A stretch of 64,000 nt of DNA, taken from the NCBI GenBank assembly GCA_009746045.1, contig RPFO01000076.1, positions 4,581,775 to 4,645,774 on the forward strand. The letters run 5' to 3'. The position numbers were made by a program, and so were the translations under genes. Shown in pieces: positions 1 to 58,285 of this stretch. The first letter of the stretch is position 1, and every line of letters starts with the position of its first letter. Source of the stretch: Mesostigma viride. Taxonomy: Eukaryota; Streptophyta; Mesostigmatophyceae; Mesostigmatales; Mesostigmataceae. Below the pieces are notes generated by a model, which worked only from the letters and a program-made list of their open reading frames with translations, did not search any database and was not told the origin of the DNA.

Positions 1-729
1 TGGAAATACAGGAAGGTCGCCGAGCTGGCACCACTGCAGGGGCCGGCTCGTAGGGAAGCCGAGGAGCGCTACCGCCGGAAGCTGGCCATCTGGGAGGCGA
101 GCGTCGGTAGGCTGGAGCGGCGTATGCTCAAGCAGCGACGCCGTATGTCCAAGAACATCAAGAAGGCTGCTGTGAGGGGATGCATGGGGGAGGCGGTAAG
201 AGCTGAGTTTGGTTTAATGCCGGATGAGCGGATTTCCACCGAGCAATTGTACCATTTTTTGTCGCAGCCCACGCACACCATCTCTAACAGAGATGGTACA
301 GCGGCGAGAACCAGGGTGACGCACCGGGGCGAACCCGGTCCAGCGACATTGTCGCACCGGGAGGACATCCGGAGGCAACTCCAGCTGGCCCAGCAGATGC
401 TGGACGAGGGGAGGGAGCTCACCCCGGCGGAGCATGGCAGGCTAGCCGACACGGTGGCGAGGCTGGTGGCCTCGCTGAAGCCAGCAAAGCGAAGGGCACC
501 GGAGGAGGCATGCACGCCACAGCCAAAACGTAGGAGGGACGAGGGGGAGGATGACGGAGAGAGGGGGGGCAACCAGGGCGGGGGAGGACACGGCACCCAA
601 GAGTCTGCACCAACACGTCACGAGGGCGGGGAGCGGCAGCAGCAGCAGCAGCAGCAACAGCAACAGCAGCAGCAGCAGCAGCAGCCACCTGCAGGAACGA
701 CCACAACCTCCAACATGGCCTTGTGTAGG
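1..729 (+). pseudogene. N-terminal part of Gag polyprotein of element 2, split by element 1
   Basis: The frame is open from base 1, so the true start is upstream. The product is very basic with an Arg/Lys-rich N-terminal helix, a predicted amphipathic helix around bases 360-470, a nuclear-localisation-like KRRR cluster, and a polyglutamine run encoded by (CAG/CAA)n at 637-684. The frame ends artificially at 735 inside the LTR of element 1. Joining base 729 directly to 9189 continues the same frame through a Lys-rich linker into a Gag-like helical region. No known enzymatic domain is visible. I infer structural Gag function only from its position before the zinc knuckle at 10036-10077. Confidence 0.7.
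725..729. repeat. Left target-site duplication of element 1 (GTAGG)
   Basis: GTAGG stands immediately left of the first LTR base (730) and again right of the second LTR (9184-9188). Five bases is the usual duplication for Copia integrases. Removing one copy plus the element restores the interrupted Gag frame. Confidence 0.9.
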
Positions 730-1377
730 AGTTAGCATTTTGGGCAACCAATATGCTAAGTGGATGCAGTTTGGAAAGACCTTTCCAACGCCGTGCTGAC
801 CGCCTGAAACAGACAAGGGACAAGAAAGATATGAGGTCCCGAAGTCCTAGCCGTCCGTGGCCGACTGGGGTACAGTCCTCTGGTGTAGTGGACAGGACAC
901 GTGGCAGGCCGTGCCTGCGCAGGCTTAGCCTGACTATCACGTGACTGTGGTCCACGTAGACCAGAGGAGCAGCAGCCTGTGACTGGTGGGCTACAGGAAC
1001 TGGCACAGGTCTGCAAGGATACTAGGCCTTGCAGGCTTGTGACAGGTCCTGTACTTCCTAGGTTGCAGAGTCTAGGCAAATCCAGTTCGTCCTGGCTCTG
1101 CACTGATGCCAGTGGACGTTGAGGATTTGCTTGCCTGCCTGCACGTGCCTCGTCACGCCGATGGGAACGAGGAACAACGCAAAGGATATAGCTTGGTCAT
1201 GGGGGATGACCAGCTATCTTGGCAAGCACGAACCGAGGCTCCCACATTGGACGTGGAACCGCTCACCGTGGTCGTGGCTTGGTGCACGGGTTAAAAGGTT
1301 GCTGCCTTGCAACTTTGGCTCATCCCGTTGTGTGGCGTGAGAGACCAGGAACTCACAGTTCTGGCTGCTCGCTAACT
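730..1377 (+). repeat. 5' LTR of element 1
   Basis: 648 bp, matched by 8537-9183 and by 58286-58933. The ends are AGTTAGC and GCTAACT, perfect inverted repeats, instead of the canonical TG...CA. The first 28 bases contain the inverted pair TTAGCAT/ATGCTAA, so the LTR start can form a hairpin. I could not place TATA or poly(A) signals with confidence. Confidence 0.92.
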
Positions 1378-2605: not shown

Positions 2606-3958
2606 ATGCCTCGTGGCAAACCGGGAGACGGCGACAAGGGCGAGATGGAGGCACCGGCTGGAGCAAGCCAGGAGCCTCGGCAAGACAAGGAGCAGCTGGT
2701 GGGGGAGGCGATCCCAGCCAGCGAGGGCGATGGGGGAAAGAGACCAGGCAGCAAGAGACGGCACGAAGACTCGGTGGAGGAGGCGCGCAAGGCGCGGGCG
2801 CTAGGAGCATCTGATGCAATAACGGTGGCGAATGGGCAACCTGCCGTGGAGAAGCGTAAGAGGGACACCTCCGCTGACGGCAATGGTAAGAGGCCTCACG
2901 TGGATGTGCTCTCCCCTGTGCTTGCTGGCCCAAGTGGCGTTGTTACTGTGACACCCACTGTGGTGGAGCCGGTGAAAGCGCTGCCAGGGTCGAGACCTCA
3001 CATGAGTGCAGTCACGCTTATGAATGGACAAAAGCCTCTTAACCCACCACTAGCACAGGAAGCTCTAGACAAGTGGCTAGAGGACATGGAGCTGGTTGTG
3101 CTCTCCGTGGACCCCACTGTCAACCTAGTGCAAGTGTTTCACTCGTCCACGTGCAACAGGGACTCGTCAGAGCGTGTCAGGGAAAAGGCTAGGACTGGTG
3201 TCAAGGATAAGCTAACCTGGGCACAGTTCCTGGATGGGTTGAGGGAGGAGTTCTCTGACAAGGTTCTCAACCTCACCAACTACTATAAACATCAGTATGA
3301 CACCTTTGAGATAGTGGGCCCTGTGGCAGAGGAATGGGCTAGGCTCAACCGTATCAGGACAAGGGGGCCAAGTATGGCTTCCTGGTCACAGATAGGGCCT
3401 TGGCAGACTATTTCCTGGACCGTATGGGTTTGAGTGTGGATGGGAGGAACAGTGCCCGCATGTTTCTTAACCAGACTGATGGCTCCTTGCGTGCTCTGGA
3501 GCTTGTAATCCTCAGCATAAGGAAGCCAGATCCTGCCTGCAAAGCTATCCAGTCCCATGGCAGCAATGCCACCTCCGCTGTGCAGGGCCAAGGTGATGTC
3601 CCCGGGTACCCAGCCCGTGATGGGGCAAGGCCCAACAAGCGTAAGCGCTTCAGGCGCCAGAGGCAGGGGGCTCAGGGTGGCAAGGGTGCAGGTTCCCAAG
3701 GAGGGGTTGGGAGCCAGCAAGCTGGTGGTCAGCAGGGTAAGGGTGGCCAAGGGCAAGGCAAGGGCCAAGCTCAAGGCAACCAGGGCAAGCAGGGTGGACA
3801 GTCTCAGGGAGGCCAGGGAAGCCTGGCAAGGGTGGGGCTGGGTCTGGGAAGAAGGGTGGAGCATGCTTTGTGTGTGGCAAGGAAGGTCACTGGCGTCGTG
3901 AGTGTCCTGACAGGAAGGCCAAGCCTGCTGGGGCAGGGGGCCAGTCGGGCAGCAGTGA
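2606..3958 (+). pseudogene. gag: Gag (capsid-like domain plus CCHC zinc knuckle), element 1
   Basis: Starts at an ATG just after a TATATAA string that is conserved in element 5. Parts in order: a Lys/Glu-rich N-terminus, a helical domain around 3060-3520 resembling Retrotrans_gag (DKWLEDMEL, then the LTWAQFLDGL and DYFLDRMGL blocks), a long Gln/Gly-rich linker (3650-3850), and a CX2CX4HX4C knuckle (CFVCGKEGHWRREC) at 3864-3905. One base is missing near 3357 compared with element 5, and another near 3945. The protein would form the particle and bind RNA. It ends at TGA 3956-3958. Confidence 0.85.
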
Positions 3959-3962
3959 CTAG
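3956..3962 (+). promoter_or_regulatory. Gag-Pol junction: UGA CUAG, readthrough-type stop
   Basis: Gag ends in TGA followed directly by CTAG. UGA-CUA(G) is the best-known leaky stop context in eukaryotic and viral mRNAs. Allowing for the single-base indels of this copy, Pol continues in the same frame; in element 5 the frame is unbroken across the stop. Elements 3 and 4 have TGA CTT at the same place. Stop suppression as the way to set the Gag:Pol ratio is inferred, not shown. Confidence 0.65.
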
Positions 3963-6900
3963 CTACATCATCCCCTGTAAATAGTCAATCACCCCTTGGG
4001 GAAGGTGTGTGGATGTACATAAGGATGGGGGTGTGCCCCTTGTGCAGCACCAAGGGTGTAAAGATGTTGTTCTTCCACTGGATTGCAATAACAATGCTGC
4101 AGCTGAATTCCCTATGCCTCATGCAGGTGGTGGGTCTCCAGCAGGTGCTGGCCTGGAGGGCCAAAGGACCTTGCTGGAAGGGCCTGGAGCGGTCCAGGGA
4201 GCAGGACCTGGCTTGGGGAGTCAGGATGGCCTGCAGGAAGCCCTGGAACCTCAGGAGTGGATCATGTGTCCCCACACACGGTTCAGACGTCTCGCCAGGT
4301 CAGTACTGACAGAGTGCTGAGCTATGCTGAGGCTGGCCATAGATTGCATCATATGTTTGGGCATTCTGGGCAGGCAGCAATGTTTGCTTGGAAGCTAGGT
4401 AGGGAGCCTTTGTGGGAGGCATGCCAGGCTGCTGCTGAGAACTGTGGTTGCCAGGAGAATGCTGTTCACCCACCTCAGTCCCATGCTAGGGAGCCTGCTA
4501 GGGAGCGTGGCGACATCCAGATGGATATCCAGCATATCAGGGGCTTGTATATATTGGTGGCAGTGGACAGGTTCAGCAGATATAGGCTGATAGACGTTCT
4601 GCCTGGTATGCAGGAGCACCACTTGTTGTTGGGTATGAAGGCCCTGATCCCAGGCTTTGGGGTGTGCAAGAGTGTGCAGGCAGACTTGCAGTTTGACTGT
4701 TTGCTCAAGCATCAGGACCAGCTGCCTTGTAAGCTGGTAGTAGTCCCCAGGGAGAGTCATGGGCAGCAAGGGGCTGTAGAGAGATCCATACGTGAAGTGA
4801 AGACAGTGGTGCTAGCAGCAGAGTCAGTGCCACTTGTGGCATCTGCCTTAGAGAGGGCAGCCTGGTGTAAGGGGATAGAAGAGCAGCTGAACCACAGGGT
4901 TAACTATTACTTTGATGGTGTGGCTGTCTCTCCCCTGGCCCTGCAGTATAGCTTGTTACCTGAGAACGTGGTGCAGGCCAGTCTTAGGAAGGCAGATAGG
5001 TTATTTGCCCAGCTGAGACGTAAGGACAAGAACTGGAATGTGCTGAGGCCTCAGGTGGGGCTGAAGGTCAGGATGTGGAAGGAACCATCTATTCCAGGCA
5101 AGCGGGGGAAGTGGCAGGATGGGGTTGTCACTCGTGTGGAAGAAGCTAACAGATCTTGCCTGGTGGCTTTGGAAAAGGATCCAAGGCACGTGTACAGGTT
5201 GTCCTGGGCTCATGTCAAGGAAAGAAGGCCACATGCAATCTGGCCTGCAGACGGGCCAGGCCCTCCCAGCTGGGTTGAGGAGCCAGGCCAGAGCCAGGCA
5301 GCAGCAGCTAACAATCCTCTGGTAGTGGATGATGGTCTGTCCCTGCTGGAAGATGACGAGCAGGAGGAGGCTGCTGAAGCAACTGTCACAAGGCCAGAGG
5401 GGACGGGGCAGCCACCTAAGGCCCGGGGGCCTCTCATGGCGGACGTCATCCGAGCACTCATGCGCAGCAAACATGATCCCAAGGTATCCAAGCTCACGGG
5501 GTGGGGGTCGTGCTGGGCAGCTACAATGGAGGTAGATACCAACTCACAGGTGTCTGTCATCAGGGAAGAGGATGCTGTAGGCTTACAGATGTCCCATCCC
5601 AGTTGCCTTGCTGTGTCTGATTTCTCAGGAAAGGTGTCCATGAAGATCCTTGGGGAAGTGAGTGTGCCTATCTTAGGGGTGCCCACCACGTTCTGTGTGG
5701 TAGAGGGCTATAAGGGGCCTGCCATTCTGGGACAGAACTTCTTGTGCATGCCAGGGGTTACTTTGACCTCTGATGAGTTGGCACTAGAAGGCAGGGGCAG
5801 CCTCCCCCTTGAAAGATATCACTATTCCCAGGGTCTTGCAGTGGCGGTGAAGGCTGTTAGGAGTCAGCCAGCTGAGGGTCCTCAGAGTCAGGAGCCCATA
5901 GCTGAGGACTTGTTGATAATCCCAACCACCTTTGATCCAAGGCAGTTAGGGGTAAACAGGTACCAGATAGCTGCTCACAGTCCTATTCCCTGGCGCCAGC
6001 TAGTCGAGATGATGCAGAGCCCCAAGATGGCTAAGGCATGGACTCTTGGCTTTGTTGCTTCTGGGCATGAGTGGATAGTTTCCAACTGTGCAGAACCTGT
6101 GGATGAGCTGCCAGAAGTTCACCAGCTGCTCAGATTGATGTTTGTCCTCAAGCTCAAGGAGGTTGATGGTGTCCAGGTGCCACATGTCAGACCAGTTGTA
6201 ACCGAGTATCATGGCACTGGCCAGTTGTTAGATGAGGAGCTCTATACTCCAGGGATGCTGCATGACACGTGGAGGATTCTGCTGTGTATATTTCTGTCTT
6301 TTCTGGTTAAGGGTGTGCCCTATAGCTCTGTGCTGATTGATTTCAAGAGGGCTTTTCTCAAGGGTGACCAAGATCAGGCTAGGCAGACTTGGAGAGATAT
6401 CCCTCCTTTCTTTGTGACTGTACCTGCTGTATGGAGAGCAGAGATAAAGGCCAGGTACCTGAGAATTCTGAAAGGGTTGGAAGGTCTCAGGTCCAGTCCC
6501 ATTATCTGGAGAAAGAGCCTAGAGAAATTCTTGAAGAATACTTGTGGGTTCTGTGTCTCCAGTGGATCCCTGTTTGTTCCAAGGGTCCTACAATGGCCTT
6601 CCTGTCTTTGCCTCACTGCATGGTGATGACCTGCATCTCATAGGTCCACCAGACTGGGTTGAGGCTGTCTTGGCTAAGATCCAGAAGCGGTTTGAGCTGG
6701 GTAAGATACAGCACATGGTGGAGAATGAGCCTATGGTCTTCTGTGGCATGCAGGCTACGTTGTTCCAAGCCAAGGGCTCGTGGTTCATCAGGATGGAGGG
6801 TGGTAAGGACTACCCACAGCAGATTGTAGATGCATTGCAGGAGCCCATCACGCAGGCTAGGTGTGCTACCATCAGGGGCATGCTGGCATGGCTTGCAAGT

Positions 6901-7527
6901 ATATGTGCCCCTGACTTGCTGGTTCTGAGTCGACTTACTGATTCCCAGCTGGTTGAGGTGGGTGCTGAGAGTGTGGTGCAGGCTGTCATGATGTCTCCCC
7001 CTCTCATACTGGGTCCTGTGGATTTGTACAAGCCCCTTGACATGGTTCTCTATGTAGACAGTTCTATGGACAATAGGAAGGTCACAGAGGTCAGGGGCCG
7101 GGCAGCAGCATTAGTTACCCTGGAGCAAGATCACACCTCACTTGTTACCTGGTACAGTCGGTTGCAGAACAGGGTTACACCCAGCAGTGATATTGCTGAG
7201 TGCAGGGCAATCTGTGAAGGGCTGCATACTGCTCTTTACTTGAGGGAGCTCTTCTACCAGCTATGTCAAGTGGCTTCCTGTAGGTTGCAGCTGCACACAC
7301 TGGTGAGGACTGATAGCATGGGCATGGTGCAATTTGTGCACAGGCAGCTGGCCAGGAGCAGGGACCTTGACTACTTGTTGCTCAAGGAGATGTCCTACCT
7401 AGCTCACATTGAACATGTGCCTGGTGTGGACAACCCTGCAGATGCCCTCACCAAGCTGGAGGAGAAGGCGGAGAGGCAGTACCCCCTGCTCCGTGGGCTC
7501 ATGGACCCCTTACACGGGCGGCCATAG
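3959..7527 (+). pseudogene. pol: Pol: integrase - retropepsin-like - RT - RNase H (element 1)
   Basis: Integrase comes first: His/Cys zinc region around 4345-4450, catalytic Asp in DIQHIRG (about 4520), second Asp in QADLQFD (about 4680), Glu in GAVERSIREVK (about 4775), then an SH3/GPY-F-like C-terminal domain (5040-5240, RMWKEPSIPGKRGKWQDG). The protease-like domain follows at about 5530-5760 (DTNSQVSVI with Asp codon 5535, flap region, then ILGQNFL). RT (about 5900-6900) has Asp in IDFKRAFLKGD and HGDD at 6619-6630. RNase H (about 7030-7480) has YVDSSMD, the SSDIAECRA block and NPADALTK. Breaks: frameshifts near 4013, 4245 and 6555. Family: Copia-like RT/RNase H, but with integrase before protease. 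Confidence 0.88.
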
Positions 7528-8536
7528 AGACCAGGCCTTGCTTCAGCTTGGGTGCCCCCAGTGGGCTGCTTGACCAAAGTACCAAGTGGTGACTGGTGCT
7601 TACTGGTTGACAGCCGGTCCTTCAGGGTTAGGTACACCCTCCTGGACAGGAGTTGGTGTGGAATGTCACTCCTACCAGCTGAGAATCATGCCTGGCCCTC
7701 CCCATGGGGTTCAGAAGAGTCGCCAGGACTTAAGTCGACGCCTTTGGCCTCAAACAGTTAGGCCATGCAAGGGCAACCCGAATGTTGGTTCTTACAGGTT
7801 GCTGTACATATGTTTTCTAGTGCTTGTTTCCAACCTGTTGCTAATAAAGAACCTGGTTGTGTGACCATGTGGAACATGGTTGCCAGGGGGCCACATTCTG
7901 GGTTATATAATGCTTGAATAAAACATAATCATGTCATGTCATTCTCATGTTGTTCCATGGTTGTAATGTTTCTCTTGTGTAAAGTTCCAGGTCACCTATA
8001 AACCTGGAGGTTGGGGTGGGGTTCAATTCCCCAGCAGAGCCACAGCCTGGCATGAGTGATTCCTGGGCTTAACACCCAGTGAAGACATGGGCTCCCCAAT
8101 GAGGCAGTATTTGTATAGGTGCTACCTGAGTCTCTTTGAGCATAAAGGGAAAGGCTGGCCAAGGCGGGCGCCATAAGAACGGGCGCCTGTGATAACTGTG
8201 AAAGATCAGGAACTCACAATAGTACGTTCTTGGCATCCTGTAATCCCAGCCATTGGACTAGGTAATGTGCCTTGACTTTAATCTAGCACCAAGTTCCCAA
8301 GGAAAGGTTGGGAGCTGACCAAGGGGTCAGGGGATAACCTGGGGTGACCTCTGATTCACTGGCCAGTACACCTAGCCTGGTCCAAGGGCAGATATGTTGT
8401 TACCCAAAGGAGGCAGGAACCTGGGCCCTCAAAGGTCTGATCAACCTCAAGGGACCAAGCGGTCTGTGGCTGAGTGGGCACAAGCAAGGTTAGGTTTGTT
8501 TCAAGCTGGTCCAGCTCCAAAAGAAGAAAGGGTTGG
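7528..8536 (+). other. 3' untranslated region of element 1
   Basis: About 1 kb without a supported gene. AATAAA-like signals occur at about 7844 and 7917. A tRNA T-arm-like sequence (TGGGG-loop-CCCCA) lies at 8017-8033. A 36-base block at 8163-8198 with a GGCGCC/GGCGCC hairpin, and the motif CAATAGTACG at 8217-8226, are conserved in the diverged element 4. The region ends in a purine-rich tract (AAAAGAAGAAAGGGTTGG) directly before the LTR, suitable as the plus-strand primer. Confidence 0.7.
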
Positions 8537-9183
8537 AGTTAGCATTTTGGGCAACCAATATGCTAAGTGGATGCAGTTTGGAAAGACCTTTCCAACGCCG
8601 TGCTGACCGCCTGAAACAGACAAGGGACAAGAAAGATATGAGGTCCCGAAGTCCTAGCCGTCCGTGGCCGACTGGGTACAGTCCTCTGGTGTAGTGGACA
8701 GGACACGTGGCAGGCCGTGCCTGCGCAGGCTTAGCCTGACTATCACGTGACTGTGGTCCACGTAGACCAGAGGAGCAGCAGCCTGTGACTGGTGGGCTAC
8801 AGGAACTGGCACAGGTCTGCAAGGATACTAGGCCTTGCAGGCTTGTGACAGGTCCTGTACTTCCTAGGTTGCAGAGTCTAGGCAAATCCAGTTCGTCCTG
8901 GCTCTGCACTGATGCCAGTGGACGTTGAGGATTTGCTTGCCTGCCTGCACGTGCCTCGTCACGCCGATGGGAACGAGGAACAACGCAAAGGATATAGCTT
9001 GGTCATGGGGGATGACCAGCGATCTTGGCAAGCACGAACCGAGGCTCCCACATTGGACGTGGAACCGCTCACCGTGGTCGTGGCTTGGTGCACGGGTTAA
9101 GAGGTTGCTGCCTTGCAACTTTGGCTCATCCCGTTGTGTGGCGTGAGAGACCAGGAACTCACAGTTCTGGCTGCTCGCTTACT
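8537..9183 (+). repeat. 3' LTR of element 1
   Basis: 647 bp, differing from 730-1377 by about one indel and three or four substitutions (for example near 8676, 9020, 9101 and in the terminal GCTTACT). It is followed by the GTAGG duplication. Confidence 0.92.
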
Positions 9184-9188: not shown

Positions 9189-10830
9189 CCCAGGTTTGAT
9201 CCAAAAAAGAAAGAGGATAAGCTAGTGTTCCCGGGTTTGCCAGAGGGCCATACCCAGGATGAAGCTAGGGAGTGGTTGTTTAAGTTGTCACATGCGTATG
9301 CTAGTGATAATGTGCGTGATTGGTTTGCATCCCTGCGTGCATCCACACCCATCCATCAATCTGCCAAGCCTATCCAGCAGTTTGTACAATTGTACCAAAA
9401 GCGTGCCAGCAGCGGGGTAGATGTGGCAGAAAATGTGTTGTGGGCGCAGTTCATGGTAGACCTTAGGGCACTCGTCACCACGGGGGAGCACTTAGAAGTA
9501 CTTAAGGGCTTCCAGTGGATAGAGGCGTATAAGGTCAACAAGCGTGACTATGTGAGTGACAACAAAAAGTACGTCATGTACATACGAGGGGGATGAGGAG
9601 CTGAAGAAGCTCAATGCCAAGTACCTAGTACACCTATGGCTACAAAAGGCAGAACTGGACCCTACCACCCTGTCAGTCATACTGGCAGGTCTGAAGGATA
9701 AGTGGGAGGACTTCAGGAAGGCAATGGCTTATGTGCAGCAATGCCTAGAGCCATTTGCTGCTGCAGCCAAGGATGTAAAGGTGAAGCAGGTAAAGGGGGA
9801 GGAAGCCTCAGGTACGGGGCTCTCCAAAAAGCAGATGCAGTCGCTGGTGGCCCAGGTAAAGGCGGTAATGGGGGGGGATAAAAACAAAAACAACAAAAGT
9901 GGGGGAGGTGGAAACAAGGGGGGGGGGAAGAATAATAACAACAAAAACAGAAAACAAAGTGGGGGAGCTAGCAAGCCAGGGGGTGCTAAGCCAGCAGGGG
10001 GGGACAAGAGGTTGCCTCATGACCCCACCAAACATTGCACTAGGTGCCTTTGTAAGGGGCACCTAAAAGATGATTGCTGGAAGGGCAAACCCGACTATGG
10101 TTCTGACGTGGATGTTTGTCCTGGATGTTGGAAAACACGTCACCCCATTGCAGCAGGAGCGCGCTGCACGGCTCCCAGGCACAACAAGAACACGCCAGGG
10201 CGCTACAACCGCGCGGGGGCGGCAGACCAGGGAGACTCCTGTAAGCTACCCTCACCATTTTTCACAAATGGTTTCCTGTTACCTTCTGTCTGCCAAGTGT
10301 TGCCTGAGTGTGAGGATGTGGATTGGGATGTGGCATATGATATGACCCTGTCACACATGATGCGTGACCCCACCATAGCTTCCCTTAGTGCAGCAGCAGA
10401 AAAGGTAATCACGTATGGTGCTCTAGCAGAGCAACTGCACAAGGTTATGGGCCATGAGGCTGTGGCTGAAAGGCTAGCCAATAAAATACAAGGCCATGAT
10501 CTGGAACAGATGTGCAGGCACGTACGTAAGCACTGTGAGCAATGTCAGCTATATGCTCCTAAGCCCAGAAAATGGCATGTGGCCACACCACCACTGGCTA
10601 GAGGCAAACTGGTTGGGGATGTTATACACGTGGTGAAGGACACGGTATACTACCTAGTCATAAAGGATGCCTGGTCAAGGTTTGTGGTAGTGGAGCCTCT
10701 GCCTGGGATGGATAAAGAGCAGCTGCACAGAGCTTTACAGATAGCCTTGGCACGTTTTCACCCCATTGAAAAAGTAATGCTGGATCAGCAGTTTCTCTGC
10801 ATCCAGGACAGGAATGATCTCAGCCCAAGA
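9189..10830 (+). pseudogene. Gag C-terminal half, zinc knuckle and integrase N-terminus of element 2
   Basis: Continues the frame of 1-729. A Gag helical region (REWLFKLSHAYASDNVRDW and following) runs to about 9570, where a one-base shift moves to the next frame. After a Lys/Asn/Gly-rich linker comes CTRCLCKGHLKDDC at 10036-10077, a CX2CX4HX4C knuckle. No stop separates Gag from Pol here, unlike elements 1, 3, 4 and 5. The integrase zinc region (His pair at about 10438-10455, Cys pair at about 10535) and the first catalytic Asp region follow. The frame fails near 10825, just after the second Asp (MLDQQF). Confidence 0.78.
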
Positions 10831-11936
10831 TAGAAGTGTCTGGGGCTCAAGATCATGAACGTCAGGGGTTGGTAGAACGTACCACGAGAGCCATCAGGGA
10901 TGTGATAAGAAAAATGCCATCCAGGTTGGCTGACTCTGGTAGCTATGCTGACAGGGCATCTTGGGCAGCAGGGGTGACTACCCAGCTAAACGCCAAACCA
11001 ATAATGTCCTCACCTTTTGGGGAAATCACCCCAACTGGCCTTCAGTCAGGCAGCCATGCTTCAGAGGTACACACTCACTACAACACACAAAGGCAGCACT
11101 TAGCCAAGTTGCTGGCAAAGAAAGACAAAAATAATGCCAGGCCTGTGTTTGAAGTGGGGGACCATGTGTTGTTTTTCAGAGAAGGTGACAGAGGAAGAGC
11201 ACACTCTGCCAGATGGCACGGTCCAGCTGTAGTCACAAAAATTCATGAAGAAGGGACTGCAGTCACTATACAACATGACAGAGAGCGTGTGGTCAGCAAG
11301 CATAGACTCAAGCTTCATTACCCACCACTGGCAGACGTGTCAGGGGTAGAATTCTTGGACATGGATTCAGAGCAGGAGTCTGGTGGATTGATCTCACCCA
11401 ATGAATTGGCTAGGGACGTCATTGATGCAAGCACTAGTACCACAGTAGAAGCTCCTGTATTCCTCAGTAGTGCAGCCACACTACAACCCACTAGTCCACC
11501 TGGGCAGGAGGAAGGTGCGCAGGGTGAGCAGCAGGTAGCCCCTCCCTCACACCTGGAGGAGTCACAAGAGAAAGCAGATCCTGTCGTTCCCAGGAAGTCA
11601 TTTGCTGAGATTCTTAAGGCCTTGCACAAGGCACACAACACTAAAGCAGTTGTGGCAACAGGTGCATCACAAGTCAATGCTGTAGGGGATGCAGGTCAAG
11701 ATCCTAGTATTTTGGCTGTAGACACCCAAGCACAGGTGAGTATCATCAGTGCAGCAGCTGTATCTGGTCTGAAAATGAAGGCCTCACCATGGGCTAGAGT
11801 GTCAGATTTTTCAGGCAAAACAAAAATGCAGGTCAAAGGTCAGGTGAGCATTCAAATCTTGGGTATGCCCACTCCATTTCAGGTGGTTGAGGGTTACTCA
11901 GGGAATGCCCTGTTAGGGGAACCTTTTGTATCTTAC
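10831..11936 (+). pseudogene. Integrase C-terminus and retropepsin-like domain of element 2
   Basis: Opens with RQGLVERTTRAI, the integrase Glu motif, then a basic C-terminal domain (VGDHVLFFREGDRGRAHSAR, a GPY/F or SH3-like fold). A linker rich in Pro/Ser/Glu is followed by VDTQAQVSII (Asp codon 11721), a flap-like SDFSGKTKMQVKGQ and LLGEPF, the same retropepsin-like layout as in element 1. The frame reads to TAC at 11934-11936 and resumes at 12620 once the solo LTR is removed. Confidence 0.8.
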
Positions 11937-12614
11937 TGTTGCGAACCCGACCCTTGGAACGGGCGCAACAATGGAATAAATTATGTGTTTTGGCTTGTTG
12001 TCATAGTCCGTAGGACTTTGGGACTCATTTCGGGACTTAATTTGGGAATTGTCCCTTGGTCAGGACTTTTGTATGGAATTATGATAGTTTGTGTGATTCG
12101 GACCAGTTATTTTGGGCCTAGGTTGATGTATGCGATCTTCTAGGGGCCGGTGCAGTCGCGCCGCGCTGCGTACTTTATAGCTGGTTGAGATATTGTACTC
12201 ATGCGTGGATTCTGTAGCCTGGCGAGGGTCGATGTCGACCCGAGGATCTTGTGTGGACTGCATGCTTCGTAATTCTCTGGAAGGTCGGCGCCATGTCGGC
12301 GCCACTTGCCAGCTTGGTGGCAGACCTAGGTGAAATTGGTCCGAGGACGAGAGTCTCGTCCTCTTGGTTCGATGAATGTAAAGTGCGATGAAGCCTACAC
12401 ATTGAACCTGGGGCACTTATCCATTTGTAATTGGTCTTGCTAGCCATTATAAGTGTGTATTAATTAGCTTGGCATCAAGTCGCGGTGCCAGATATCTCAC
12501 GACCCCAGTCGTGAAGCGCAATCTGCATTAGGCCACCTTGATTCTTCCTCTTACCGGCACAGTTGATCTTTCGCGACGTAGCTCAGGTTTAGGTGTAAAT
12601 CTGGGTTCGTTACA
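11937..12614. repeat. Solo LTR of an unrelated LTR retrotransposon
   Basis: 678 bp with canonical TG...CA ends inside imperfect inverted termini (TGTTGCGAACCC and GGGTTCGTTACA). It is flanked by the 5-bp duplication CTTAC (11932-11936 and 12615-12619). No internal region is present, so this is the product of LTR-LTR recombination. Removing it with one CTTAC restores the element 2 protease-RT frame. No other copy is in the window, so the family is unknown and the strand undetermined. Confidence 0.9.
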
Positions 12615-12619
12615 CTTAC

Positions 12620-14435
12620 CCTGGTGTTGTCATCTCAGCTGGGAGGTTGAGTGTGGCAGGGGTAGGACAGGTACCTCTAGATCATTTTAAAATCCCTTTG
12701 AGCCAGATTAGCACTGGGTTGGATGCTGCCATCCATGCAGTTAAGCCCAAGTACATCCCAGGTCAGGAACCATGTGTGGAAGACCTCATACACTCTCAAA
12801 AGCTACACCCTTCAGCGTTTGGGCTTGGTAGATGGGATGTTGCATCCATGTCTCCCCTGTCCTATGATGATATTGTACGGGACTGCCAGACGCAGATTGG
12901 GTTTCTTAAGTGGCTGGAGGCTTTTACCAAAGCCAGGGAGGAGTGGGTTGTTCCAGATGCACGTAGTCACACTCACACACCACCTGTGACTCCTCTTGAT
13001 GTTATGCCAGCTGGAGCCAAAAAGCTAAGGTTAAAGTTTGTGTGCAAGCATAAACCTCAGGCTGATGGGGGACCACCCATTTTCCATGCTAGGCCATGTG
13101 TCACTGAGTTCAGGGGCTCTACAGAGCTGACAGAGGCTGAGCTTTATACTCCTGGTATTCAGCAAACGTCTCTCAAGGTGTTGCTTTCCTTGTTTTTGCA
13201 TCAGATTAATACAGGGAAGGATTATGTGTGTAAAGCCACAGATATCAAAAGAGCCTTTCTAAAGGGGGACCCTGCCATAGCACAGCAGGTCTGGAGAGGT
13301 CAGGTATACGTGGTGAACACTCCTAAGGTGTGGCACAGGGATATTGTACAACCCTTGTTGAGGCCAAACCTGGGAGTTGAAGGGTTGCAGTCAGCTCCAA
13401 AAATTTTTAGGCTGGCTGCACAGGAGGTATTCATGAAGCTAGGGGCCACCTATGATGACATTGACCCTTGCTTGTTTGTCATCCCACACCCTGATGGACT
13501 GATGATGTTTGTCTGGCATGGGGATGATCAGTTAATCTCAGGTCCTAGAGCTGCAGTGGATGCTTTCATAGCTCAGGTGTCTGCCAGTTTTGAGATTGGC
13601 AAGCAGCTAGAGCTGGGCAAGGAGCCAGTCAAGTTCTGTGGCATGATGCTTGATCGAGTTGCTGCAGCAGCAGGGCAGCTGGGTTTGTTCCATGCAGGCC
13701 TCTGCTGAATACATTAAGTCTTGTCTGGATGTCCTGCCTGTTCACATCACCCCTGACATGTGCCCTACCATTAGAGGCAAGCTTGGTTGGCTATGTGCTA
13801 CATGTGCACCCCACCTGGCTTTTGTGAGCAGGGTATATGATGAGGTACTACAGGAGGTAGGAGCACGGGCAATCAAGCAGTTATTGCATGATGGTCCACC
13901 TTTGATGCTTCACTCACTGGACCTGTTTACTCCCATTCACATCACGTGCATGATGGATAGTTCAATGGAGTCCAGGGTAGTTACCAAGGTTCAAGCCAGA
14001 GAGGCTGGATTGTTTTTCCTGCATAACCAAGGTGGGAAGAAGTCACTAGTCTCCTGGTTCAGTAGATTGCACAAGAGGAAAGCTGTGAGTAGCAATGTAG
14101 CTGAATGCAGGGCTGTGGTATCTTCTGTCTTGCATGCAAGGTATCTCAATCACTTGCTGGTCTAACTTCTACACCAGGCTGGTAGCTCTGCAGGAGTGAA
14201 AGCACATTTGCTGACTGACTCTCAATCTATCATCTCTTTCCTTGCCAATCCTTTGGCTGTACACTCGGACCTGGATTGGATTGTGCTAAAACAGGAATGC
14301 AAGTACCTGGAGTCTAAAGCCCACGTCAGGGACAAAGACAATGCTGCAGATGCACTGACCAAGGTGCCACAAGCAGCGGGACCACAGTACCAGGTCTTGT
14401 ATGGGTTGATGAACCCTGGTTACAGTCTGAAGTGA
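12620..14435 (+). pseudogene. Reverse transcriptase and RNase H of element 2
   Basis: RT blocks: ELYTPGIQQTSLKVLLSLF, TDIKRAFLKGD with the first catalytic Asp, DIDPCLFVIP, and WHGDD at 13514-13528 in the place of YVDD. A frameshift near 13690 leads into the connection and RNase H (MMDSSMESRVVTKV, SSNVAECRAVV), a TAA at 14163-14165, then the last RNase H block (LLTDSQSIISFL, DADALTK-like NAADALTK) ending at 14435. Copia-type RT/RNase H, inactive. Confidence 0.85.
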
Positions 14436-14819: not shown

Positions 14820-15206
14820 AGTGAGTCTAAGTCTCCCGCCTGTAGCCTAAGTGGACACGTGCCAGCACCGCCGGCGCCCAATTGGGTACTGGGACGCTGC
14901 TGGACTAGAGCAGTCGTGGCATGGACACGTGGCTAGACTCAGTATGTGATGAGCCGGTACCTCAGTACCGGGACTGTAGTTGTCATGTTAGGACTGACTA
15001 GATCAGGTTGTAACTGATAGGCTAGTCCGTCCAGGATCAGTAAGTTAGGCTTAACTTACGCAAAGTCTGGTCAGCCGCAATTGACGGCTGACCAGCAGTA
15101 TATGTGCCATTCTATCCTAATGCCAAGGTGTCTCGTCGTCTCCACACTGGCCATTTGGCATCGTTTGCGTGCACTGAGTTTCCCAAGCTCTCAGCCTGCA
15201 CTAACT
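14820..15206 (+). repeat. 3' LTR of element 2 (inferred)
   Basis: 387 bp bounded by AGTGAGT and ACTAACT, near-perfect inverted ends of the AGT...ACT type shared by this lineage. The left side abuts a polypurine tract. The right side abuts, to the base, the point where the RT frame of element 3 resumes on the other strand. The matching 5' LTR is outside the window, so the boundaries rest on structure only. Confidence 0.65.
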
Positions 15207-17965
15207 TTGCCCAGTGAAAACTTGCCACTGATGACAGGAATAAATTTCTTCAGCCAGGTCGTGGGGGCTAGCAAATGCAGATCATCTCCATGCAAACTAG
15301 CATACACTGGCAGACCCTCCCATTGGGCCAGCAACAAACAGGGATCAACTGAAGACACTCTCAAGCCACACTCACTGACCAGAGCTTCCTGCAGCGTGAG
15401 TCTCCAGATGATTGGGCTCGACCTGAGTCCTTCCAGGCCCTTCAGAATAACCAGGAAATGTTGATGCAGCTCCAGCTTCCAGATAGCAGGCACCTCAACA
15501 CAGTAAGGCTCATCCTGCTTCCACACCCTCCTGGCCACTTCTGGATCAGATTTTAAAAATGCCCTCTTGAAGTCCAGCAGCACTGATGACATAGCTGCTC
15601 CCCTGTTCAGCAACCCCACGTAGAGACATAGCAAAATTCTCCATGTGTCGTGTAACATCCCTGGCGTGTACAGCTCCTCTCCTGGCAGACTCCCCGTGCC
15701 GTGATACTCATTCAGGACAGGCCTGACATGGGGCACTGATACCTCATCCACAACCTTCCTCTTCAGCACAAATCTCAAAGCAAGCTTCCTTGATGCTGGG
15801 GGACGTCTGTCTGTTGGTGCAGCACACTCAAACTGCAACCACTCCTCCAATGCCTTGGAGAAGGCGAGCTTCCAAGCCTCAAACAAAGTAGGCGAGCTCA
15901 TCTCTTGGACTAGCTGGTCATATGTCAAAGGAGAGTGTGCAGCAAGGCTCCTGTGAGTTATGCCAATACTGCTGGGGTGCAACACAGCTGGAATCACCAA
16001 ACTGGCTGCTGGGGGCACCTCCCCTTCATCCCATTTTACACCCTTGACCGGCTTGGCCCTGCACCTGACTGGAAATGTTGTCCTGAAATTTTCTAGGGGA
16101 ATCATCCCCCAGCCATCTCTTCTCAGAGCTGTAGCTCTGATAGAAATCCCAGGATTGCCCAGAAAATTCTGACCCAAAATCACAGGGCCATCATAGTCCT
16201 CTAGGACAAGGAAGGTCACATCCACACCCATGACAGGGGCAGTAACCTCTCCCAACACCCTTAGATGCGTCCTACCACTGAAATCAGACACCCAGGGGCA
16301 ACTTGGTTCTCCGACCAGCAGTTCTCCTGTATGCTGAGGTCCCATGACAGAAACCTGTGCATTGGTATCTATCTCCATGGCAGCTACCTCAGGTTCATCC
16401 AACTGGACAAGCTTGGACACCTTAGGCTCCTTCTTGGCTCTTTGCAAAGCCTGTACAATATCTGATAGACGCACACCCCTAGGCCTGGTGTCGGGCCGTT
16501 CCGGAGGTGCAGCCTGTCCGCCTGCTTGCCCAACCACCGTATGTGAAGGTACCCCAGGGGCCGGGCCAGGGTCACCCTGAGGGCTCGATACAGCTGTAGC
16601 ACCCTGATCAGGAAGTTCCACGTCACCCCCGCCTTGTACACCAACGGGCACCTGGAAGAGGTCTCCTTGATTACCTCCCCGGGGACGGATCTTTGACCAG
16701 GACAGACGGTGCACTGCTTGGGAGCCATCAATGGCCACCCAGCACTTATGGCCAGCGGCTTCTACTCGGGTCACCACCCCATCATGCCAGCTGCCACGTT
16801 TCCCTGGAAAGCTTGGCTCCTTCCACACAACAACCTGTTGTCCAACGTTAGGTTCTAGGACACTCCAGCCCTTGTCTTTCTGCCTCAGCTTGAGGAACTT
16901 GGCCTCTAGCTTCTCCTTCCATGCCTGCTCAGCATCAGCTGGCAGCATCCTGGTGTGCAGCATAAGAGGATTGATGGCAATGTCACCAAAGAACATGGGA
17001 GTCCTGAGGTTCAGCCTATCCTCCACAGAACGTAGCCATGCAGATGTCACAATGGCAGATGACGTCCTTGGAATCCTCTCCACCAGCAGCACAGTCTTGA
17101 TCTCTTGGATGGCTCTCTCCACCACCCCTTGCTGGCCGTGGCTCTCCCTGGGTGTAATCAGCAACTCTGGAAACTCTGGCAGGTTCTCACAGCACTCAAA
17201 CTGAATGTCACACTGCAACAACTCCAACCCAGGGTACCTGCTCCTTGTCAACTTCAGAGCAGCAATTAATGTAGGCTTCTCCATGTCAGGCAGGATCTCT
17301 AGGGTCTTGTACTTGGTATATCTGTCCACTGCCACCAGCAGCTTCAAACCCCTGATTCTCTGAATATCTACCTGCACATGGCCTGGCTGCAAAATAGGAG
17401 ACCTGGCATGAGACTGCTTGGGCTTTCTAGCAACTAGCCTGCACTTGCAAGCTTGAGCAACCTGTTGGCAGATGGAGTACAACTCACTTCCTCCCAGCCG
17501 TCTAGCAACTTGCAAAGACTGAGCTGCATGGCCAAACATGGTATGCAACCTTGAGGCAATGTCATACAAGAGAGAAAATCTTTTATTGTCATTATTAGCA
17601 CTCAAGGTATGTACAGATCCCTTATGTACAGGAGGCACCAGGGTCGTGCCTGTCAGACTGTCTCCAGCCCTATCCTCATCCTGACCATCCTGTGCCAGTC
17701 CTGCACGGTCAGAATGCTTCTGAGATCCACCTGGGTCCACAGCACCAGGTCCTACCTCAGGCTCAGCACCGCCATGGCGGGCACGTTGGCGAGTAACCAC
17801 TGCAGCTACAGCTGGCATACTCTCTGTGGTAACCAAGCTTGCCCCATCGTGTCCAATAGGCTCTGTCACTAGAGCATGGGGCTGCCCCTCACTGCCGTCA
17901 CTAGCAGCTACATTACACACCCCTGGGGGCACCCTCCAGGGTTCAGGGATGTGTGCAGGCTCAAG
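15207..17965 (-). CDS. pol: Pol of element 3: integrase - retropepsin-like - RT (truncated)
   Basis: Open from the codon after TGA 17968-17966, with the first ATG at 17932. After an acidic linker: integrase with His pair near 17530 (HTMFGH) and Cys pair near 17450 (CKC), Asp in VDIQRIRG, Asp in QCDIQFE, Glu in GVVERAIQEIK, and a C-terminal domain with WKEPSFPGKRGSWHDG. The retropepsin-like domain (DTNAQVSVM, SDFSGRTHL, VILGQNFL) lies near 16365-16150. RT has LDFKRAFLKSD and HGDD at 15281-15292. The last three residues and stop come from the neighbouring LTR. Same domain order as element 1 although the proteins are clearly diverged. Confidence 0.88.
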
Positions 17966-38567: not shown

Positions 38568-41290
38568 GTAAAAACAGTGGTGCTAGCAGCTAGGAGTGTG
38601 CCTGTTGTGGCATCAGCTCTAGAAAGAGCAGCATGGTGTAAGGGGATTGAGGAGCAGCTTAACCATAGGGTAACCTATTACTATGATGGTGTGGCAGTCT
38701 CTCCCCTGGCACTGCAGTTTGGTACATATGCTATCACAGGACGTGGTGGCAGCCTGCCTGAAGAAGGCAGACAGGGTGTTCTCCAGGTTGAGGAGAAAGG
38801 ACAAGGGCTGGAAAATGCTGAGGCCCCAGGTGGGACTGAGGGTCAGGATGTGGAAGGAACCGTCATTACCAGGCAAGCGTGGCAAGTGGCAAGATGGGCA
38901 GGTAACCCATGTGGAAGAGGCTAACCATTCTTGTCTGGTGGCTTTGGAGAGTAATCCCAAGCACGTGTACAGGCTATCCTGGGCTCACGTCAAGGAGAGA
39001 AGGCCAACTGCAATCTGGCCTGAAGACGGCCCTGATCCTCCCTTGGAGGGAGATGAGCAGGATGAGAGCCAGGCAGCAGATGCTAACCCGCCATGCTTGG
39101 ATTATGGTCTGTCCTGGATGGATGAGGGTGAGCAGGAGTCTGCTGAGACGTCTGTCACAAGGCCAGAGGTGGCCAGGGCTGCACCACAGTCCAGGGGGCT
39201 GCTTATGGCGGACATCATTCGAGCTCTGCAGAACAGCAAGCGTGATCCCAAGGTATCTAAGCTCACGGGATGGGGGTCATGTGGGGCACCAGCACTAGAA
39301 GTGGATACCAACTCACAGGTGTCCATTCTAAGGGTAGAGGATGCTGCAGGCTTGCAGTGGTCATCCCCTAGCTGCCTAGCTGTGTCTGATTTCTCTGGGA
39401 ATGTGTCCATGAAGATCTTGGGAGAAGTGAGTGTGCCTATCCTGGGGGTGCCCACCACGTTCAGTGTGGTTGAAGGGTATCAGGGGCCTGCCATTCTAGG
39501 TCAGAACTTCTTGTGCTTACCAGGGGTGAGGATATCCTCTGAGGAGCTAGCATTAGAGGGCAGGGCCGCCTTCCCTTGCAGAGATATCGCTACTCCCAGG
39601 GTCTTAGTGTGGCTGTAAGGGCTGTGAGGGGTCTAGAGGCAGAGGGTCCTGATACAAAGGAGCCCATTGCTGGGGACCTGCTGATCCTCCCTACTACGTT
39701 TGACCCACGTGAGTTGGGTGTGCAGAGGTACCAGATCCCAGGAACGAGTCCTGTACCTTGGCGCAAGCTAGTGGAGATGATGCAAAGCCCCAAGATGGCT
39801 AAGGCATGGACTCTTGGCTTTGTTGCTTCTGGGCATGAGTGGATAGTTGCCAACTGTGCAGAGCCTGTGGATGTCCTCCCTGAGGATCACCAGCTGCTCA
39901 GGTTGATGTTTGTCCTCAAGCTCAAGGAGGTGGATGGCGTGCAGGTGCCACATGTTAGACCAGTTGTGACTGAGTACCATGGCACTGGACAGTTAGCAGA
40001 TGAGGAGCTTTACACACCAGGGATGCTGCATGATACATGGAGGATTTTGTTGTGCATTTACTTGTCTTTTCTGCAGAAGGGGATACCCTATAGCTCTGTG
40101 TTGGTAGATTTCAAGAGGGCTTTTCTTAAGGGTGATCAGCAGGAAGCACAGGATACTTGGCGCACAATACCCCCTTTCTTTGTTAAGGTGCCTGCAGTGT
40201 GGAGGGCAGAGCTGAAGACGAGGTATTTGAGGATTCTCAAAGGCGTGGAAGGCCTTAGATCGAGTCCCATCATCTGGAGGAAGAGCTTGGAGAAGTACCT
40301 CAGGTCTGTCTGTGGTCTCTCAGTCTCTCCAGTTGATCCTTGTCTGTTTCAGGGTAGCTATGAGGGGCTGCCAGCGTTTGCCTCCCTGCATGGTGATGAT
40401 CTGCATCTCCTGGGCCATCCCACTTGGCAAGAGTTGACTCTGGCCAGGATCCAGAAACGGTTTGAACTGGGTAAGATCCAGTACATGGTTGAGAATGAGC
40501 CCATGGTGTTTTGTGGAATGCAGGCGACCTTGGTCCATCAGCAGGGTACATGGTCCATCAAGCTGGAGGGTGGTAAGGATTATCCTCAGCAGATCATAGA
40601 TGCCTTGCAGGAGCCCATCACCCAGGCCAGATGTGCAACAATACGAGGTATGTTGGCATGGCTGGCCAGCATTTGTGCTCCTGACCTGTTGGTACTGAGT
40701 CGGTTGACCGATTCCCAACTGGTTGAGGTGGGTGCTGAGAGTGTGGTAGAGGCTGTTCGCATGTCTCCCCCTCTCATGCTGGGTCCTTTGGATTTGTACA
40801 GGCCTTTTGACATGATGCTCTATGTGGACAGTTCTATGGATAGTAGGAAGGTCACAGAGGTCAGGGGCCGTGCAGCAGCATTAATATCCCTGGTGCAGGA
40901 ACAGTCCTCTCTGGTCTGCTGGTACAGTCGGTTGCAAAACAGGGTAACTCCCAGCAGTGACATTGCTGAGTGCAGGGCAATCTGTGAAGGGCTTCATACT
41001 GCTCTTTACTTGAGGGAGCTATTTTACCAGCTATGTCAAGTGGCTTCTTGTCGGTTGCAGATGCACACACTGGTAAGAACTGACAGCATGGGCATGGTGC
41101 AGTTTGTGCTCAGGCAGCTGGCCAGGAGCAGGGACCTTGATTATTTGTTGCTCAAGGAAATGCCTTGCTTAGCTAACATTGAACATGTGGCTGGCGTGGA
41201 CAACCCTGCAGATGCTCTCACCAAGCTGGAGGAGAAGGCTGTCAGCTGCAATACCCTTTGCTTCGTGGGCTCATGGCCTCCAAGGGGGGA
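38568..41290 (+). pseudogene. pol: Pol of element 4: integrase end - retropepsin-like - RT - RNase H
   Basis: Integrase C-terminal part with RMWKEPSLPGKRGKWQDG (about 38850), then VDTNSQVSIL (Asp codon 39304), SDFSGNVSM and AILGQNFL. RT: VDFKRAFLKGD, VDPCLFQGS, HGDD at 40389-40400. RNase H: YVDSSMDSRKVTEV, SSDIAECRA, VRTDSMGMVQF and NPADALTK near 41205. Frameshifts near 38720, 39590 and 41245. The order integrase-protease-RT is again visible. Confidence 0.87.
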
Positions 41291-42250
41291 GGGCCAGAGT
41301 AGACCAAACAGCCTTGCTCTAGGTGGGAGGCATCCCAGTGGGCTGGGCAGCCACGTGGTGGCTGACAGCAGGTCCTTCAGAGTTCAGACACACTCTGCTG
41401 GACAGGGGTCAGGGTGGAGTCACTCCCCTGGCTGAGAATTTCGCCTGGCTCTGTCATGGGACTGCAGAAGAGTCTTAACCTTAAGGACTTTGTAATGGGC
41501 CTTGGGTCTTCATGGAATGGACCCTGCAAGGGCAGCCCAAGTGTTGGCTCTAACAGGTTGCTGTACATTTGTATATATTCTCTGTAACCAACCTGTTGCA
41601 TGCTAATAAAATCCCTGGTTGTGTGACCATGTTGGACGTGGTTGCCAGGGGCCTCACCATGGGTTATACTTCTTTATAATAAAACATAATCTTGTTATTG
41701 TCATGTCATGTTGTTTGTGATGCTCAGTTCCAGGAGCTGATCCAAACCTGGAGGATATGGGGTGGGGTTCGATTCCCCAGCTGACCTCAGCCTGGCATGT
41801 GTGAATCCTGAGTTTATCCCTCAGTGAGGACATGGGCTCCCATGTGTTGGCTAACATTTGTCAGGGCTCTCTCAGTCTTTGGTTGGAAGGATTTAAAAGA
41901 TAAAGGAGGCTCCGTGGCGGGCGCCATATGAACGGGCGCCTGTGATAACTGGATGACCAGGAACTCACAATAGTACGTTCATGGACTCCTCCTCTATCCA
42001 AACTCCTCTGACTAAGTGAAGACCTAACTTTAATCTACACCAGGTTCCCAAAGAAAGGGTTGGGATGTCATGTGGGTCAGAGGGCAACCTTTGAACCAAT
42101 GAGCAGGCCTAGCTAATATTTTGAGGCACCTCAGGTTCCAAAAGAAAAGGCAGGTCTGGTCTCTGGGAGGGATCAGATGTCTGAAGGCTGTGGGGACAGT
42201 GGCTGATAGGTTCTCAGGCTGGTCCAAGCTCCAAAACAAGAAAGGGTTGG
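41291..42250 (+). other. 3' UTR of element 4
   Basis: Non-coding. Shares with element 1 the AATAAA region near 41603, a T-arm-like TGGGG-TTCGATT-CCCCA at 41763-41779, the GGCGCC hairpin block (about 41916-41951), CAATAGTACG (about 41970) and the purine tract before the LTR. Confidence 0.7.
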
Positions 42251-53300: not shown

Positions 53301-53427
53301 GAAACACACCCATAAAATGCAATATGGTGGCAGCCACATGCACGCAGTGCCAGTAACAACCGCACTGTTCAAAACAGCACGAACAATCAAAATCTTTTCA
53401 TTATAATGTTAAAATAATAAATGTTTA

Positions 53428-55394: not shown

Positions 55395-55459
55395 TAGCCG
55401 TCAAGAACCCATTAAATCATACTAGCTACTCAGCGGCGAAATTCTGGAATTGTAACCAT
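55395..55459. other. 65-bp spacer between the inverted elements
   Basis: A unique sequence not seen elsewhere in the window. It separates two near-identical inverted copies of about 2 kb, so the whole region 53428-57423 can fold into a giant hairpin. Confidence 0.8.
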
Positions 55460-57423: not shown

Positions 57424-58285
57424 TGATCATTTAATGAATCATCTATACAACACTGTTATGGCTTTATGACACATCCGTCATTGCCTTTCATCAAATATGA
57501 TGACAGCTGGTTAACAAATCTGGTCGCTTGCTAGGGCATCATGCTGACCGCTCCCATTTCATTCTCGTGGTGCCTGCATGAATCCAAGCAAACCGCGACA
57601 CAATATGCAAGAGAAAAAAAAGATATCAGATCCTTGACATAGACATCACCATTCTACAAGGAAGAGCTCACCAGCACCTAACGGTCCAATCATGCAGCAA
57701 ATGTGTAGAACACGATTTATGACCCAACACTCACTCTTATGGCAAAGCAGCCCATACACATGAATCACACCATGCGCCAGCAGATGTCACACGAGCAATT
57801 AAGCCACAACGTTGTCGTCGGATCAGAAAGCAACAAACGTGAAAACGCTAGCGGCCCAAATCTGAGATTCCGCGGAACACAGAAAATAAGAAAGCTCAGA
57901 AGCTACCAGCAAGGGATCAAGCATAGGACCTTTGGCATGATTTCGCGGCTGTGTGAGTCTCCTTATCCGAAGGCATCTCACTTAATTAACGTTTCGAAAC
58001 AGCCAAACTGCGAAAAATCTCTTACCGGAGAGAGTTGCCAATATCAAGGAGACAACCAGCGCAGGCCAGAAATCGGGAGAATCCGGACCATGGGAGCTCG
58101 AGCCTGCCGTTATCTTGTCCGCGTTTTCGAGTCGTGCAGGATTATGAATATGAATGGAGATGGAAATGTGTAGCCTTGTGCATTGAAATTATGGCTGGCT
58201 GACGTGAAGAGCGACTACATGACCTAGACGGTGGGGCCGGAAACAGCTTGCTTGATTGTGTTTCATCGTGGGCAGTGAGTCCAAC
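57424..58285. other. Unassigned region before element 5
   Basis: No supported gene. An open stretch at 57739-58173 has no recognisable domain and ordinary composition, so I do not call it. Confidence 0.4.

Follow-up and report, generated by a model that had tools for sequence, protein, structure and literature searches.

A Mesostigma viride LTR retrotransposon lineage with a retropepsin-like domain placed after integrase and before a Copia-type reverse transcriptase

The Copia and Gypsy superfamilies of long terminal repeat (LTR) retrotransposons are defined partly through domain order, and a 64-kb stretch of the Mesostigma viride genome (contig RPFO01000076.1, positions 4,581,775 to 4,645,774; the window, meaning the whole stretch analysed, lies within a 440-Mb assembly of 2243 contigs in which LTR elements are abundant) raises the question of whether that order is obligatory. 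Five elements in the window had been initially annotated as carrying a protease-like domain behind integrase (IN) and ahead of reverse transcriptase (RT). Our data confirm a retropepsin-like domain between integrase and a Copia-type RT, and suggest that retrovirus-like genes need not follow their usual arrangement. These elements probably represent an LTR lineage ordered Gag, integrase, retropepsin-like protease (PR), RT and RNase H (RH), with RT and RNase H on the Copia side and a protease of Gypsy/retroviral type. The features of elements 1 to 5 are as follows.

725..1377, +, element 1, 5' LTR (99.2% identity to 8532-9183)
3864..3905, +, element 1, zinc knuckle CFVCGKEGHWRREC at the end of Gag (motif scan)
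4332..5279, +, element 1, integrase including its C-terminal SH3-like part (rve E=0.0017; a profile with relatives matches PDB retroviral integrases)
5400..5879, +, element 1, protease-like domain (PF13975 E=0.11, model positions 11-90 of 92; fold comparison)
5925..6626, +, element 1, first part of RT (weak RVT_2 match, E=0.023; alignment A3)
6535..7527, +, element 1, end of RT (HGDD just past 6607) and RNase H (motif scan, translation)
8532..9183, +, element 1, 3' LTR, pair of the 5' LTR
9556..10833, +, element 2, end of Gag, zinc knuckle (10036) and start of integrase (rve E=1.1e-5)
11586..11936, +, element 2, protease-like domain (PF13975 E=0.0003, Peptidase_A2_2 E=0.012, Asp_protease_2 E=0.037)
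12599..13708, +, element 2, RT (RVT_2 E=3.3e-7)
13704..14165, +, element 2, RNase H (translation, by eye)
16613..17560, -, element 3, integrase (profile comparisons; C-terminal part alone resembles Agenet, E=0.0015)
16025..16504, -, element 3, protease-like domain, Asp codon 16369 (alignments A2 and A5)
15194..16024, -, element 3, RT, frame stopping after HGDD (near-identical copies form a family)
39169..39615, +, element 4, protease-like domain, Asp codon 39304 (motif scan, alignment)
39543..41435, +, element 4, RT and RNase H (RVT_2 E=0.0008)
62058..63086, +, element 5, integrase (96% DNA identity to element 1)
62951..63430, +, element 5, protease-like domain, protein identical to that of element 1; RT then runs to the window end

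Protease-like motifs were found at all five expected places (Asp codons at 5535 (+), 11721 (+), 16369 (-), 39304 (+) and 63086 (+)), where D-T-[N/Q]-[A/S]-Q-V-S is followed 63 codons on by [I/L]LGxxF, between integrase and RT. Element 1 reads ILGQNF from 5724, and element 2 reads DTQ and LLGEPF. Wherever the pieces are readable, the H..GH/C.C zinc site and DDE residues of integrase stand upstream of the protease-like domain and RT stands downstream, as had been claimed; in element 1 the zinc site begins at about 4347 and D/D/E fall at about 4524, 4683 and 4779. Elements 2 and 3 fall into subfamilies different from that of elements 1, 4 and 5. Element 4 is a diverged relative of element 1 (70–80% over aligned parts), and element 5, which continues past the window edge, is 96% identical to element 1 in DNA and has the same protease residues. 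The count of five diverged copies must therefore be lowered to four.

Long single frames elsewhere in the genome support the order Gag-IN-PR-RT-RH. One uninterrupted frame of 2110 aa (locus L035) encodes the entire Gag-Pol series: zinc knuckle at residue 880, H..GH at 1010, integrase D/D/E near 1070, 1125 and 1155, D-T-Q at 1436, LLGEPF at 1499, DIKRAF at 1715, HGDD at 1807 and the RNase H motif at 1996. In a second frame (L031, 1287 aa), Pfam placed rve at 241–302 (E 4e-5) and RVT_2 at 813–1012 (E 1e-6), with Peptidase_A2_2 at 612–675 (E 0.051) and PF13975 at 610–681 (E 0.17) between them. The full set of motifs, zinc knuckle through RNase H, was present in L031, L032, L035, L039 and L040, and L033 and L037 had every motif except the RNase H pattern. 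Ten long loci were taken by RT, mostly for their long open frames, and so give no measure of how many copies are intact; protease and RT shared one frame in all ten, with the HHCC site upstream in that frame in eight. The protease preceded RT in 10/10 and followed the HHCC site in the 8/8 that reach it, so the Copia order was not encountered among them. At L036 and L037, two members of the lineage adjoin each other. In the most diverged subfamily sampled (L054), integrase and protease share one frame and stops fill the downstream part. A protein search in which 7994 candidates were scored yielded a single relative, the ENA record P0001 (1214 aa), which has the same order and 64% identity to element 3; no relatives were found in phage records, viral contigs or prokaryote contigs.

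Within the window, copies are nested and some have been disrupted, which would favour an assembly artefact or local rearrangement. The Pol of element 1 has a frame shift near 6535–6626, and element 4 is interrupted between about 34.9 and 38.6 kb. Set against this, the motif recurs thousands of times, on either strand and across many contigs, its spacing is constant in the 15 copies examined for it, and a relative occurs in an ENA record. Using a DNA pattern for D-T-[N/Q/K/H]-[A/S]-Q-V with the following codon partly fixed, and the reversed pattern as control, we obtained 3185 genome matches versus 4 in the control. The motif was present in 15/15 element-3-type copies on contigs C1 and C2 that were located through their RT and lie within the listed pattern range; it stands 330 nt ahead of the RT piece in 14 and 329 nt ahead in one. 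We therefore rejected an artefact on genome-wide copies and constant spacing, and consider it to have a negligible probability; the initial annotation's view that the order is not a local rearrangement stands.

Many of the copies scored also keep long open frames. Among 138 element-3-type copies scored (from 5964 candidates), 86 have an open frame of 1196 or 1198 aa, with RT identity of 99–100%, and 10 of 111 element-2-type copies scored (from 6384 candidates) have a frame of exactly 1287 aa. Element 1 is a complete LTR element whose 653-bp LTRs are 99.2% identical, with TGTAG at both outer ends as a target-site duplication (by eye, one copy). Taken together, open frames and LTR identity point to recent amplification of a large family that is apparently recently active. 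The ends of the element 1 LTR at 725–1377 resemble GAGTTAGC...GCTAAC and not TG...CA.

Is the domain behind integrase a protease, and of which kind? We aligned 11 protease members (alignment A5), omitting element 2 (cut by an insertion), element 5, and near-identical and frame-broken copies; most members were chosen by a motif containing Asp and Thr. PF13975 matched 7 of the 11 segments at E<=1 (best 0.004), with all matches of lineage members under the curated cut-off, and retropepsin families were the sole families matched by more than one member. When the 11-sequence profile was compared with 177,635 PDB sequences, three matches arose at E<=10, all of them ASPRV1, in register, with E 1.1. 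In VIA-align comparison of the model, all 50 matches listed were aspartic peptidases with low Z, and many aligned ranges began at model position 47 and HIV position 26. Several results weigh against a retropepsin identity: the segments of elements 3 and 4 taken singly matched no retropepsin family in Pfam at E<=10, Foldseek with both models returned nothing at E<=0.001, phmmer with element 3 found no match in PDB, and a 5-sequence profile matched two unrelated PDB proteins only and, in hhalign, aligned outside the protease. Nevertheless, weak but converging tests by Pfam, profile alignment and structure comparison suggest that the domain is a retropepsin.

These tests also bear on whether the domain is a misread disordered linker plus the SH3-like integrase C-terminal domain of Copia elements. 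Such a misreading would fit the position, which in canonical Copia elements is occupied by SH3 and linker, and the weakness of single-sequence matches. However, the integrase has its own C-terminal part, marked by VG..V and a conserved Trp, ahead of the protease-like domain, and the restriction of shared Pfam matches to retropepsin families and of the listed structural matches to aspartic peptidases also argues against it, leaving it very improbable.

A further alternative is an ordinary Copia lineage whose native protease was shifted behind integrase by rearrangement, as the Copia-type RT and RNase H might suggest. In hhalign, the lineage's protease profile aligned in register with Gypsy protease at a score reached by 0/60 shuffles, versus 18/60 shuffles for Copia protease, and on this comparison a moved Copia protease was rejected. 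The [I/L]LGxxF end of the domain is moreover lacking in this genome's Copia proteases, and the integrase aligns with Copia integrase no better than many shuffles (see below). We consider this alternative improbable; the predicted protease is Gypsy/retroviral in type and not one that a Copia element has moved.

Pfam searches bore out the expectation of a retropepsin match behind integrase and none upstream: PF13975 and Peptidase_A2_2 matched weakly after integrase, and neither Pol_BBD nor any other protease family matched upstream of it in four frames at E<=1. P0001 had no Pol_BBD match at E<=10, and the pattern D[ST][GA] is absent from the whole of P0001 and L035. Same-genome elements served as positive controls: Pfam recovered Pol_BBD, gag_pre-integrs, rve, SH3 and RVT_2, in that order, in the Copia elements L002 and L006 (Pol_BBD E 4e-15 and 2e-9), and PF13975, RVT_1, RNase H, H2C2, rve and chromodomain, in textbook order, in a Gypsy element (L009).

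The statement that no copy has a DTG-like site between zinc knuckle and integrase held for elements 1 and 3, P0001, L035 and L036, but failed for element 4, which reads VVGVDSGS at 34244 (+) in an open frame leading to HHIFGH about 70 residues later. The aligned position reads GLEGQ in element 1, and no D[ST][GA] stands there in P0001, L035, L036 or element 3. We take the element 4 DSGS as chance, because the linker around it, rich in Gly, Ala and Ser, is not long enough to hold a protease; the distance from knuckle to HHCC is about 100–120 residues in L031, L035, L036 and element 2. Elsewhere, LADSGSYADR in element 2 and L031 is located after the integrase Glu, the first frame on the Gag side of element 1 contains one WDSAE, and the remaining D[ST][GA] matches in the window lie in other, mostly stop-filled frames. 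A canonical protease upstream of integrase was thus rejected on the missing Pfam match, the short linker and an element 4 DSG that is unshared.

The active site is unusual, as the initial annotation had proposed in noting that Asn or Gln replaces the Gly of DTG. The third residue of the triplet is Asn or Gln in all 100 listed matches (of 3185), and the D-T-G form of the pattern gave 3 genome matches versus 4 in the control, i.e. control level. Several synonymous codon spellings among these 100 indicate that the protein and not the DNA is conserved. Of 13 places from the pattern list, nine stay in frame through the LG motif, three lose the frame once past the D-T motif (L043, L045 and L047), and one (L049) has no flap and is probably a chance match. 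The ratio of nonsynonymous to synonymous substitution rates (dN/dS) between elements 1 and 4 is 0.32 for the protease segment with its flanks, similar to the integrase part (0.34), and lower in RT (0.09); the protease segment is under purifying selection.

Loss of the Gly, together with the lack of any other protease motif in P0001 or L035, is what would be seen if the domain were a non-cutting retropepsin relative, retained next to RT for structure or dimerisation, with Gag-Pol either cut by an enzyme of the host or left unprocessed. We think this rather unlikely. Asp and Thr are kept in 11/11 aligned members (though most were picked by motif), and the motif is kept in the 10/10 long loci taken by RT as well as in the 15/15 RT-found C1/C2 copies; purifying selection on the segment likewise speaks against a non-cutting role. 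In addition, Copia elements of canonical order in the same genome (L002 and L003) have a protease with D-S-A-A-S-S-H instead of D-S-G, a second instance in this genome of the active-site Gly being lost. A non-Gly triplet is thus not unique to the lineage, and Asn/Gln is the unusual part. Asp-Thr-Asn/Gln is a putative working active site, and the lineage is a natural case in which to ask whether D-T-G can do without its Gly.

The label Copia-like fits part of the lineage. RT and RNase H profiles matched Copia (E 2e-9 and 2e-6) and not Gypsy, RT alignment to Gypsy scored below shuffles, and RVT_1 had no Pfam match; against the RVT_2 cut-off of 31.6 bits, L036 scored above (32.9) and L035 and L031 just below (30.9 and 29.0). 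The label did not extend to the protease or to the integrase, which is not detectably Copia-like. In hhalign, 34/60 shuffles scored as high as the match to Copia integrase, versus 0/60 for a weak match to Gypsy integrase, although the integrases of these two superfamilies align well with one another (E 3e-6). The integrase profile matched PDB retroviral integrases (E 1.8e-4), Pfam gave weak rve matches only, and DDE spacing is 53–55 and 30–32; judged from its sequence, this is a strongly diverged integrase. Its C-terminus reads WHGP, WYGP or WNGP in some subfamilies and WHDG, WQDG or WHNG in others (by eye), and in hhalign the C-terminal part scored 19.4, barely above the shuffle maximum of 18.9. 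The W-x-G-P form recalls the GPY/F module, which the excerpted text of a 2009 comparison describes as absent from Copia integrases (PMC2774666). In element 3, the integrase C-terminal part (16583–16975, -) resembles Agenet (E 0.0015) and the UHRF1 tandem tudor (E 0.022), and this Agenet/Tudor-like part is possibly a targeting module.

RT phylogeny had been proposed as a check against Copia, Gypsy and BEL. In an unrooted FastTree tree built from RTs of the new lineage (7), Copia (5) and Gypsy (7), several of them near-identical and all from one genome plus P0001, the new RTs stood apart from Copia plus Gypsy with support of 0.92. We put forward only tentatively that the lineage has superfamily rank, with Gypsy-like integrase and protease joined to Copia-type RT-RH in the order IN-PR-RT-RH, a working Asp-Thr-Asn/Gln protease and thousands of copies.

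In the likeliest mechanism, Gag and Gag-Pol would assemble into particles, the protease would dimerise while embedded in the precursor and, from its place between IN and RT, would separate Gag from IN as well as IN from RT. The RT-RH part would then copy element RNA into complementary DNA, which IN would insert with a short target duplication. As for the origin of the order, we suggest that a Gypsy-like element and a Copia-like one may have exchanged parts; IN-PR-RT-RH may also be viewed as what circular permutation would make of the Gypsy order, PR-RT-RH-IN.

Compared with known systems, the lineage shares with Ty1/Copia an RVT_2-type RT, a Copia-type RNase H, integrase before RT and a CX2CX4HX4C knuckle, but Copia runs Gag-PR-IN-RT-RH with a Pol_BBD protease before integrase, whereas here a protease of another type follows it. 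With Ty3/Gypsy it shares a protease directly before RT, of PF13975 type, a weakly similar integrase and, in some subfamilies, a GP-like motif in the integrase C-terminus (by eye); it differs in that its RT is not of RVT_1 type and its integrase precedes the protease instead of following RNase H. The best structural and profile matches are clan AA proteins (DDI1, ASPRV1 and bacterial retropepsins), which resemble it in a D-[ST]-x-A-Q-x-S strand, flap and LG end. ASPRV1, however, has D-S-G where this lineage has D-T-[N/Q], and DDI1 and bacterial retropepsins have D-[ST]-G.

A precedent for altered integrase position is the Gmr1 group of Ty3/Gypsy, in which, according to the passage citing it, integrase follows the protease in the Copia manner beside a Gypsy RT (Goodwin and Poulter 2002, cited in PMC2774666); in the Mesostigma lineage integrase precedes the protease. 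The excerpted 2009 comparison distinguishes five states of integrase: behind the protease, behind RNase H, in a truncated and inverted form, lost, or upstream of gag (one caulimovirus); in that text none lies between Gag and protease (PMC2774666). A large plant survey, as its excerpted text describes, discarded every element of unexpected order as a likely misprediction (PMC6317226), so lineages of this kind could be filtered out by such a procedure. A limited open-access search, without Repbase or GyDB, found no paper naming the order Gag-IN-PR-RT-RH, and priority is not proven. A high-copy lineage with its protease behind integrase suggests that the protease need not adjoin Gag, and points to domain exchange between superfamilies.

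Three further observations follow. Element 2 carries an insertion of about 0.7 kb directly 3' of LGEPF (11937–12598). A separate locus, L017 (G000:C2011:488500-491500), holds, as judged by eye, one retropepsin-like gene of bacterial appearance and another that resembles outer-membrane genes, and its contig is perhaps bacterial symbiont DNA within the assembly; a Rickettsiales symbiont would be in keeping with this alga. Finally, a unit of about 2 kb occurs in the window at 35402–37356 and 53427–57424, in direct and inverted orientation, with 98% identity and internal 420-bp repeats.

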